Source: Thermococcus gammatolerans EJ3
Lineage (GTDB): Archaea > Methanobacteriota_B > Thermococci > Thermococcales > Thermococcaceae
Direction: 5' to 3'
Assembly: GCF_000022365.1 (NCBI RefSeq)
Contig: NC_012804.1
Span: 1,550,001-1,614,000, forward strand
Length of the DNA: 64,000 nucleotides
The notes below the pieces were generated by a model. The model worked only from the letters and a program-made list of their open reading frames with translations. It did no database searches and had not been told where the DNA came from. The translations under genes and the position numbers were made by a program. Positions 41,925 to 45,329 of this stretch are shown piece after piece (the stretch's first letter is position 1; each line of letters opens with the position of its first letter).

Positions 41925-42410
41925 ATGGTCTGGAGAAGGGACCGCTACTGGGACCCGTTCGATATAATGAGGGAAATCCAGGAGGAGATTGACGCAATAT
42001 TCCGCGACTTCATGAGGGGCCCAAGAATCTGGAGCTACCGCGAGCCCAGGGAGAGCATTGCCATCAGCGAGAGCTGGAGAGAGCCCTTCGCGGACATCTT
42101 CGACCGCGGTGACAAGTTTGTCATCACCGTTGAGCTTCCAGGAGTCAGGAAGGAGGACATCAAGCTCCGCGTTACAGAGGACACCGTTTACATCGAGGCC
42201 CAGATAAGGCGCGAGAAGGAGCTCGAGGAGGAGGGCGCCATAAGAATCGAGCGCTACTACAGCGGTTACAGGAGGGTCATCAGGCTCCCCGAGGAGGTCA
42301 TCCCAGAGAAGGCGAAAGCGAGGTACAACAACGGCGTCCTCGAAATCGAGATCCCAAAGAAGAACCCAAAGAAGCCCGAGGGAGAGGGCTTCGAGGTCAA
42401 GATCGAGTGA
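41925..42410 (+). CDS. hsp20: Small heat shock protein Hsp20
   Basis: A 161-aa alpha-crystallin-type chaperone that holds unfolding proteins. Variable N-terminus (to about 45), alpha-crystallin domain (FVITVELPGVRKEDIKLRV to NNGVLEIEIPKK) and C-terminal tail. ATG 41925 follows GGAGGTGATG. Heat induction is expected through the Phr-like operator. The Hsp20-Cdc48 pairing is conserved in Thermococcales. Confidence 0.94.
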   Translation: MVWRRDRYWDPFDIMREIQEEIDAIFRDFMRGPRIWSYREPRESIAISESWREPFADIFDRGDKFVITVELPGVRKEDIKLRVTEDTVYIEAQIRREKELEEEGAIRIERYYSGYRRVIRLPEEVIPEKAKARYNNGVLEIEIPKKNPKKPEGEGFEVKIE

Positions 42411-42534: not shown

Positions 42535-44925
42535 ATGAGCGAGAGGAAGGAAATCAAGCTTAAGGTCGCGTCCGCTTACCAGAGGGACGTTGGAAGGGGA
42601 ATCGTCAGGATTGACAGGAAGGCTATGCGCGAGCTCGGCGTCCAGCCAGGCGACATAGTGGAGATTATCGGAACCAAGAACACCGCCGCCGTTGTCTGGC
42701 CCGCCTATCCCGAGGACGAGGGACTCAGCATCATCAGAATGGACGGAACCATAAGGAAGAACGCGGGAGTTGGACTCGGCGACGAGGTTACTGTCAGAAA
42801 GGCCGACGTTAAGGAGGCGAAGAAGGTCATCGTTGCCCCAACCGAGCCGATCAGGTTTGGAAGGGACTTCGTCGAGTGGCTCCACAGCAGGCTCGTCGGC
42901 AGACCCGTCGTCAGGGGAGACTACATAAAGGTCGGAATCCTCGGTCAGGAGCTCACCTTCGTGGTAACCGCGACTACGCCAGCTGGAATCGTTCAGATAA
43001 CCGAGTTCACCGATTTCCAGGTCAGCGAGAAGCCCGTCAAGGAGGTCGCCAAGACCGCCACGCTCGGTGTTACCTACGAGGACATCGGTGGCCTGAAGGA
43101 CGTCATCCAGAAGGTCAGGGAGATGATAGAGCTCCCGCTCAAGCACCCGGAGATATTCGAGAAGCTCGGCATCGAGCCTCCGAAGGGTGTCCTGCTCTAC
43201 GGTCCGCCGGGAACAGGTAAGACCCTCCTTGCCAAGGCCGTCGCCAACGAAGCCAACGCCCACTTCATAGCCATCAACGGGCCGGAGATAATGAGCAAGT
43301 ACTACGGCGAGAGCGAGGAGAGACTTAGAGAGGTCTTCAAGGAGGCAGAAGAGAACGCACCGGCGATAATCTTCATCGACGAGATTGACGCGATAGCTCC
43401 AAAGAGGGAAGAGACCCACGGCGAGGTTGAGAAGAGGGTTGTTTCACAGCTCCTGACGCTGATGGACGGCCTCAAGAGCAGGGGCAAGGTCATAGTCATT
43501 GCCGCAACCAACAGGCCAGATGCCATCGACCCGGCCCTCAGGAGGCCAGGAAGGTTTGACAGGGAGCTTGAGGTTGGCGTTCCAGACAAGCAGGGCAGGA
43601 AGGAGATACTCCAGATACACACCAGGGGAATGCCCATCGAGCCCGACTTCAGGAGGGACAAGGTGATAGAGATACTCGAGAAGCTCCGCGGTGACGAGAG
43701 GTTCAGGGACGTTATAGACAGGGCCATAGAGAAGGTCGAGAAGGCGAAGGACGAGGAGGAGATAAAGAGGGACCTCAGGGAGCTTGACGAGAGGCTCTAC
43801 GACGAGGTCAAGGCGAGGCTCATCGACGCCCTGCTGGAGGAGCTGGCCGAGGTCACTCACGGCTTCGTTGGAGCGGACCTCGCAGCGCTCGCAAGAGAGG
43901 CGGCGATGGCCGCTCTAAGGAGGCTCATCAAGGAGGGCAAGATTGACTTCGAGGCCGAGCACATACCCAGAGAAGTCCTCGAAGAGCTCAAGGTCACCAG
44001 GAAAGACTTCTACGAGGCGCTCAAGATGGTCGAGCCGTCAGCGCTCAGGGAGGTCCTCCTCGAGGTGCCGAACGTCCGCTGGGACGACATCGGAGGCCTT
44101 GAGGACGTGAAACAGGAGCTCAGGGAAGCTGTAGAGTGGCCGCTCAAGTATCCAGAAGCATTCATGGGACTCGGAATCACCCCGCCGAAGGGAATCCTGC
44201 TCTACGGTCCACCGGGAACTGGTAAGACTCTCCTCGCCAAGGCCGTAGCGAACGAGAGTGAGGCCAACTTCATCGCCATCAAGGGTCCAGAGGTGCTCAG
44301 CAAGTGGGTCGGCGAGAGCGAGAAGAACATCAGGGAGATATTCAGGAAGGCTCGTCAGGCCGCTCCGACGGTGATATTCATAGACGAGATTGACGCCATC
44401 GCACCGCGCAGGGGCACCGACGTCAACCGCGTAACCGACAGGCTCATCAACCAGCTCCTGACTGAGATGGATGGTATTCAGGAGAACAGCGGTGTCGTCG
44501 TCATTGGAGCCACCAACAGGCCGGACATACTCGACCCGGCTTTGCTCAGGCCAGGAAGGTTTGACAGGCTGATACTCGTTCCAGCGCCGGATGAGAAGGC
44601 CAGGCTGGAGATATTCAAGGTGCACACCAGGAAGGTTCCGCTGGCGGAGGATGTCAACCTCGAGGAGCTCGCCAAGAGAACCGAGGGCTACACAGGTGCC
44701 GACATTGAGGCAGTGGTGAGAGAGGCCGCGATGCTCGCCATGAGGAGGGCGCTCCAGGAGGGCATCATCAGGCCCGGAATGAAGGCCGACGAAATCAGGA
44801 GGAAGGTCAAGGTCACCATGAGGGACTTCGAGGAGGCACTGAAGAAGATTGGGCCGTCGGTGAGCAAGGAGACGATGGAGTACTACAGGAAGATACAGGA
44901 GCAGTTCAAGCAGTCGCGCGGGTAA
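42535..44925 (+). CDS. cdc48: Cdc48/VAT AAA+ ATPase
   Basis: A 796-aa hexameric unfoldase feeding substrates to the proteasome. N-domain about 1-180, D1 with Walker A GPPGTGKT and Walker [16 protein letters not shown]2 with a second GPPGTGKT and [15 protein letters not shown]; arginine-finger regions GRFDREL and GRFDRLI. No intein. ATG 42535 follows AAAGGAGGTGG. In Pyrococcus the neighbouring-AAA gene belongs to the heat-shock regulon. The stop codon sits in the loop of a perfect 8-bp hairpin (see hairpin array). Confidence 0.96.
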
Positions 44926-45017
44926 ACGCGCGACCAGTGAGCGTAAGCTCACGCAGTCTCGTGGATGACCACGAGACCCAGCGAACGAACGTTCGCGCGG
45001 GGCGGGCGGCTGACCGC
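44913..45017. repeat. Array of five consecutive perfect hairpins
   Basis: Five perfect inverted repeats follow head to tail over 105 bp: 8 bp GTCGCGCG with loop GGTAAA (44913-44934, holding the cdc48 stop); 6 bp GTGAGC, loop GTAA (44937-44952); 9 bp GTCTCGTGG, loop ATGA (44956-44977); 6 bp GCGAAC, loop GAAC (44981-44996); 4 bp GCGG, loop CTGA (45006-45017). The stems are unrelated in sequence; four loops are exactly 4 nt and spacers are 2-9 nt. It is not a simple terminator, since no T-run follows until a promoter-like region. Confidence 0.7.
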
Positions 45018-45029
45018 GTGACACCTTCA

Positions 45030-45041
45030 CATTTTTAAATT
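45030..45041 (+). promoter_or_regulatory. TATA promoter of 81-aa protein
   Basis: CACATTTTTAAAT with the TATA core at 45032-45040, placing the start at about 45062, within the tandem 11-bp repeat. Confidence 0.55.
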
Positions 45042-45047
45042 TTCCTA

Positions 45048-45069
45048 AGGCTATCGGTAGGCTATCGGT
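45048..45069 (+). repeat. Tandem 11-bp direct repeat at the transcription start
   Basis: AGGCTATCGGT occurs twice without spacing (45048-45058 and 45059-45069), between the TATA box and the GGAGGTGA of the 81-aa gene. An 11-bp period keeps both copies on nearly the same DNA face, as for cooperative protein binding; a simple duplication is equally possible. Confidence 0.7.
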
Positions 45070-45083
45070 TTGGAGGTGATGGG

Positions 45084-45329
45084 ATGATCTACGGAGTCCT
45101 GCTCAGCATACCCGAAAAGCTGGTGGGAAAATATGAGGATCAGGTCAGGAGGACAATCGGTTACGGAATAGCGAGGGGTGATATAATAAGCTTCACTGAA
45201 GCCCGCTACAAAGGAGATATAGCCTTTGTAATGCTCGCCCGCTCAAGAAGGGCCGCTGAGAGAACGTTTTCAGAACTCTCGGAGCTCCCGATCTACGTCA
45301 AGGTCATAGAGATCGAGGGCGAGAGCTGA
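45084..45329 (+). CDS. Small uncharacterised protein, 81 aa
   Basis: Unrecognised 81-aa protein. Pattern: strand (MIYGVLLSI), helix (GKYEDQVRRTIGYGIARG), strand, strand (DIAFVMLARS), helix (RAAERTFSELSEL), strand (IYVKVIEIE), i.e. a ferredoxin-like alpha/beta sandwich. ATG follows GGAGGTGATGG. Its promoter contains the tandem 11-bp repeat. Confidence 0.65.
   Translation: MIYGVLLSIPEKLVGKYEDQVRRTIGYGIARGDIISFTEARYKGDIAFVMLARSRRAAERTFSELSELPIYVKVIEIEGES

Follow-up and report, generated by a model that had tools for sequence, protein, structure and literature searches.

Why does cdc48 of Thermococcus gammatolerans EJ3 end in a row of perfect hairpins, and what keeps them paired? The window analyzed here is the stretch from 1550001 to 1614000 (64,000 nucleotides) of a single-contig genome of 2,045,438 bp, labelled G000 in the comparisons. 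A hairpin search found five perfect hairpins filling positions 44913–45017 of the window, with stems of 8, 6, 9, 6 and 4 bp and loops of 6, 4, 4, 4 and 4 nt. This confirms the initial annotation in number, size and position, including the four loops of 4 nt. Its further statement that the first hairpin wraps the stop codon of cdc48 was also correct, as TAA (44923–44925) lies within the loop GGTAAA. The locus contains the following features.

42535–44925, plus strand: cdc48, coding for a CDC48-family AAA ATPase of 796 aa with the C-terminus ...EQFKQSRG* (ORF list; NCBIfam TIGR01243 CDC48; Pfam)
44911–44953, plus strand: module copy A, the cdc48 tail CAG TCG CGC GGG TAA with hp1 and hp2 (self-alignment; covariance-model match of 27.7 bits, E 5e-4)
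44913–44934, plus strand: hp1 of copy A, 8-bp stem, 6-nt loop GGTAAA (hairpin search)
44937–44952, plus strand: hp2 of copy A, 6 bp, GTGAGC-GTAA-GCTCAC, loop GTAA (hairpin search)
44954–45000, plus strand: module copy B, a second, non-coding cdc48 tail with hp1 and hp2 (covariance-model match of 64.1 bits, E 9e-12, over 44954–45007)
44956–44977, plus strand: hp1 of copy B, 9-bp stem, loop ATGA (hairpin search)
44981–44996, plus strand: hp2 of copy B, 6 bp, GCGAAC-GAAC-GTTCGC, loop GAAC (hairpin search; the same hairpin stands 3' of cdc48 in other Thermococcus)
45004–45025, plus strand: partial copy C, GGGCGGCTGACCGCGTGACACC (comparison with G009, G012, G020, G031 and G053)
45006–45017, plus strand: fifth hairpin, 4 bp, loop CTGA, within partial copy C (hairpin search)
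45030–45043, plus strand: T-rich tract CATTTTTAAATTTT, by its composition a probable archaeal U-tract terminator of cdc48 and/or a promoter-like stretch for the next gene
45084–45329, plus strand: gene of an 81-aa conserved protein (MIYGVLLSIPEKL...), the next gene after the array and outside the module (ORF list)

The product of cdc48 is identified as CDC48 by NCBIfam TIGR01243 (1298 bits) and by the Pfam domains CDC48_N, CDC48_2 and two AAA domains. Directly 5' of the gene, and likewise in most Thermococcus genomes examined, lies a small protein judged by eye to be Hsp20-like (41925–42410). The 81-aa protein matched no Pfam or NCBIfam family; its gene is a neighbor of cdc48 in many genomes of Thermococcus and in some Pyrococcus-like ones. 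A short tandem repeat, GGCTATCGGTA GGCTATCGG, occupies 45049–45068 between the T tract and this gene.

The stems had been described as unrelated in sequence, and this description does not hold. Self-alignment resolves the array into approximately 2.5 tandem copies of a module of about 43 nt, composed of hp1, in which the cdc48 tail QSRG* is folded on the stop codon, and hp2 (GYGARC-N4-GYTCRC). Hairpins 1, 3 and 5 are copies of each other, and so are hairpins 2 and 4. Copy A starts with CAGTCGCGCGGGTAA... and copy B with CAGTCTCGTGGATGA...; the tail of copy B, CAG TCT CGT GGA TGA, would also translate to QSRG*, the tail being coding in copy A only. Copy C is a remnant homologous to the cdc48 tail and UTR of sister species (CGCGGTTGACCGCGTGGCACC), and its hairpin ends 12 nt ahead of the T-rich tract.

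Copies A and B are identical at 31 of 45 positions (69%). Among the 12 pairs common to their stems, eight are unchanged, four are changed on both sides with the pairing kept (GC/TA, CG/TA, TA/CG and GC/AT) and none is changed on one side. The eight of 24 stem positions that differ form exactly four complementary pairs, for which the combinatorial chance is about 8e-6.

The array is the only run of at least four perfect hairpins in 464 kb of the genome, i.e. in the window and 20 spaced stretches of 20 kb (23% of the genome), searched with a minimum stem of 5 or of 6 bp, loops of 3–6 and gaps of at most 8; a first-order shuffle gave none. The search for similar runs that the initial annotation proposed for the host genome therefore leaves this array without a second example in the sample. 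Single-strand folding of 44890–45040 gave z = −5.45 for the plus strand and −4.82 for the minus strand, and none of 200 shuffles was as low. The predicted minimum-energy RNA fold is a closed multibranch structure of −67.2 kcal/mol compared to −57.4 kcal/mol for the linear row of hairpins; in it a helix between the cdc48 tail GTCGCGCGG and CCGCGTGAC (45014–45022) encloses hairpins 2–4. Rfam returned no match for the array even at E values up to 5. A C/D-box sRNA was considered because of the CTGA and ATGA loops and was discarded, as boxes and spacing judged by eye do not fit and Rfam is silent. Outside the window, a dispersed perfect palindrome, GAAACTTTTGC-N3-GCAAAAGTTTC, occurs in this genome in three copies with exact arms (G000:C1 1706786–1706810, 1834115–1834139 and 1905931–1905955; L219, L221). 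One or two copies of it are present in G002, G019, G020, G027 and G059, and a shorter variant is found in L203 at 17975.

To see how far the module extends among relatives, the 3' ends of cdc48 were compared in 57 Thermococcus genomes and 20 genomes from other genera of the family. A covariance model built from 17 units was searched in 94 family genomes (61 Thermococcus, 33 other genera). At E < 0.05 the module, whole or decayed, occurs in 15 of the 61 Thermococcus genomes, and all 15 matches lie at the 3' end of cdc48; the 33 genomes from elsewhere in the family gave none. Away from cdc48 the model scored two weaker matches, with E values of 0.18 and 0.57, which are probably chance hits. A pattern search for hp2 in whole genomes concurs: there is one locus per genome, at cdc48, two off-site matches carry three mismatches, and close copies away from cdc48 are missing. 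The module is a real, ordered and gene-specific feature of the cdc48 3' end; roughly one in four of the searched Thermococcus genomes has it, G000 in tandem copies. An assembly artefact can be dismissed, since 14 further genomes carry this module at the corresponding site.

One unit is found in G048, G045, G060, G018, G013, G016, G026, G027 and G042, and weakly in G019 and G044. Two units are present in G000, in G001, where the second has diverged, and in G052 in the order B then A, the contig of G052 starting inside the array. Remnants of the module remain in G032, G058, G002, G024, G059 and G021. In the other Thermococcus genomes read, cdc48 ends without it, so that comparing the cdc48 3' region, as had been proposed, gave a divided answer: the module recurs at the same spot, and orthologous loci lacking it are common. 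Where Pyrococcus-like genera have a comparable tail, e.g. CAG GCT AGG GGA TGA (QARG*), no module accompanies it. Where a species has a single unit, the stop codon mostly falls in the 3' arm of hp1 and not in the loop. As a separate observation, the sequence after cdc48 differs from species to species across Thermococcus, and G004, G027 and G042 (L071, L073, L085) carry a GC-rich, hairpin-bearing stretch shortly after the gene (TCGCCCCTCACGGCGGGGAGGAGGTCAGC in G027), perhaps one terminus of an insertion element.

A small selfish palindromic element, one of the readings offered at first, finds no footing in this distribution, and a dispersed element of the REP or MITE kind can be ruled out, since pattern and covariance-model searches of whole genomes give one locus per genome and always cdc48. 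Neither is an origin from viruses, plasmids or phages indicated: the hp2 pattern has no match in viral contigs, and the module has no blastn match in plasmids or phages. A loose hp1 pattern matched 78 viral contigs; with so degenerate a pattern and so large a collection, matches by chance are likely.

The gene downstream of cdc48 varies among bearers of the module. The 81-aa gene follows cdc48 in some bearers only (G000 and G060), and a different small gene does so in G048, G045, G018, G013, G016, G026 and, further away, G001. Because the neighbor differs, the module goes with cdc48. In some species hp2 is a conserved 16-nt palindrome closely 5' of the next gene, as would be expected of an operator or protein landing site for that gene. 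We nevertheless reject this reading as very improbable, because the downstream gene is different or even convergent among the bearers; moreover the stems covary rather than hold one sequence.

A hairpin-dependent transcription terminator of cdc48 appears just as improbable. The hairpins do stand directly ahead of a T-rich tract, but a terminator scan of 44800–45200 found no site of the bacterial kind (a stem of at least 5 bp followed directly by a T run), and sister species without the array retain the T tract. In addition, archaeal termination is described as based on U-tracts without a strict requirement for a hairpin (PMC7515710). Together with the frequent cdc48 orthologues that do without the module, this speaks against the terminator cassette of the initial annotation.

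The conservation of the unit between species is an argument that its pairing is constrained. Units are 86–100% identical among G048, G045, G060 and G018, and 93% identical between G001 and G016. In the extreme case the units of G045 and G048 agree at 42 of 42 positions, while the four-fold-degenerate sites of cdc48 are 51% identical; over the compared pairs these sites are 46–51% identical and thus near saturation. Decayed units such as that of G044 fall to 60–79% identity. Among 17 units, which are related, phylogenetically non-independent and were picked for looking alike, 88.8% of the cells of the named structure are paired compared to 12–54% for slid structures, and 14 double-changed cells were counted versus 4.9 ± 1.8 in 500 shuffles, none of which reached that number. 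This supports a constraint on the pairing of the module stems.

Of 55 Thermococcus species, 14 have a perfect stem of at least 5 bp at the cdc48 stop codon, versus none of 30 for each of two control orthologues, an excess that is suggestive only as the species are not independent. The stems have distinct sequences (GGGGC-TGAT-GCCCC, CGCGG-TTGA-CCGCG, GCGGC-TGAC-GCCGC and GGGCA-TGA-TGCCC). Across this genome such stems were found in 15 of 393 genes (3.8%) compared to 2.7% in an internal control; they are not enriched, and the excess is therefore peculiar to cdc48.

The compensatory changes are those expected of a structured cis RNA, but a correction at the level of DNA would give the same. This leads to the main rival explanation, in which the hairpins have no function: they would be formed and perfected by foldback or template-switch synthesis at a 3' end prone to repeats, and duplicated by slippage. 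Correction of quasi-palindromes would yield perfect, compensated stems, and the tandem copies, the reordered units of G052 and the scattered gain and loss mark a lively locus. Among single-sided stem changes, G-U and A-C wobbles on the sense strand are equal (6 versus 6), whereas a selected sense RNA should favor G-U; this count either says nothing or speaks slightly against an RNA. Such a process leaves the confinement to cdc48 unexplained, however, and fails to account for the identity of up to 100% between units of species saturated at silent sites. We regard it as possible but doubtful. The alternative put forward at the outset, selection for structure or a palindrome-generating mechanism, thus remains alive on both sides and is backed by the compensatory changes, while its premise of unrelated stems has been lost.

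Further hints come from sites that lack the unit. In the sister pair G037 (empty) and G045 (filled), the sequences read CAG-GCCAGGGGCTGATGCCCC and CAG-[TCACGCGGAGCGTGACCCAGCGAACGAAAGTTCGCGCGGG]-GCCAGGGGCTGATGCCC, a near-clean difference. The older tail persists downstream of the unit in G045, where it is now non-coding. Similar contrasts exist between G028 and G016/G026/G013 and between G014 and G060, and the near-precise empty sites keep the older QARG* tail. As this tail is retained behind the unit, the protein encoded at filled sites ends in SRG(A)* in place of ARG*. Presence of the module changes eight times on the cdc48 tree and is patchy between sister species; since most species, among them sisters of bearers, lack it, the module is not essential.

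This pattern could be read as a laterally moving, site-specific insert, a unit of about 40 bp that moves between species and always enters at this spot, through homologous exchange at the cdc48 end or the action of a recombinase, similar to the remnant of an attachment site. The almost exact correspondence of empty and filled sites, where the QARG tail survives behind the unit, the identical units in distant species and the eight changes on the tree agree with it. On the other hand, the CDS windows beside the unit show no raised identity in the pairs examined, which gives no sign of a long recent exchange tract. No genome searched has a second locus, and the viral, phage and plasmid collections hold no copy. 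The two unit types, with GTGAAC and GCGAAC stems, are discordant with the cdc48 tree, but G000, G052 and G001 each carry both. The unit types would therefore be explained by loss of one or the other unit between repeated tails, starting from an ancestral array of two, as well as by lateral transfer. We consider the lateral insert unlikely, and even less likely its boldest form, a two-hairpin insert of about 40 bp that homes to the cdc48 stop codon as its single address, passes between Thermococcus species, rewrites ARG* to SRG(A)* and stacks in tandem.

Our preferred reading, to which we would give an even chance, is a cis-acting structural module of the cdc48 3' end, most likely with a structural role in the 3' UTR. 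The unit, which is bounded by the last cdc48 codons on one side and the U-tract on the other, would have arisen or been acquired within the genus, with tandem amplification leading to approximately 2.5 units in this genome. The array would be transcribed as the 3' UTR of the cdc48 mRNA, and its presumed role is at the level of that mRNA, a possibility already raised as mRNA stabilization. Stacked beside the U-tract, the GC-rich stems could protect the mRNA end against 3'-to-5' decay, and hp1 would pack the stop codon into a stem-loop. Selection rather than a bias of DNA repair might preserve the pairing, and contraction between repeated tail copies could produce the patchiness. Against this 3'-UTR module count its absence from most species, the equal number of G-U and A-C wobbles, the preference of the predicted fold for a multibranch structure over a row, and the position of the stop codon mostly outside the hp1 loop in single-unit species.

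The module is not described in the literature searched, nor does that literature describe stop codons inside hairpins or conserved 3'-UTR structures for Thermococcus. The main text of the T. onnurineus primary transcriptome paper does not mention cdc48 (PMC5316973). As versions with zero, one and two units exist naturally, also between sister species, and the genus is genetically tractable, one can test directly how the module affects the 3' ends and the decay of the mRNA and the stop of translation. Since hairpins are gained, lost and duplicated here with their pairing preserved, the locus lends itself to telling selection on structure apart from mutation that corrects palindromes.

Among known systems, attC sites of integrons and attachment sites of integrative elements resemble the module in their structure-conserved hairpins at a gene end and in repeated copies of the gene tail, but no recombinase, cassette or second distant copy was found for cdc48. 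Intrinsic bacterial terminators also consist of a hairpin followed by a T-rich tract; the cdc48 array differs by its five hairpins, the last of them 12 nt before the tract, by the lack of a scan site and by sister species that do without it. REP/BIME and other dispersed palindromic repeats likewise form short palindromes in a row at gene 3' ends, whereas the cdc48 module is restricted to one locus per genome and has no dispersed copies. Descriptions of conserved 3'-UTR structures in archaea are, to our knowledge, scarce, and those of stop codons inside hairpins scarcer still. From the stem-loops that protect mRNA in 3' UTRs the module, with its putative protection, differs in that it wraps a stop codon, belongs to one gene only, is tandem and lineage-patchy and has no Rfam family; it shares with them GC-rich stem-loops at a gene 3' end beside a termination signal, and a structure that is kept while the sequence drifts.
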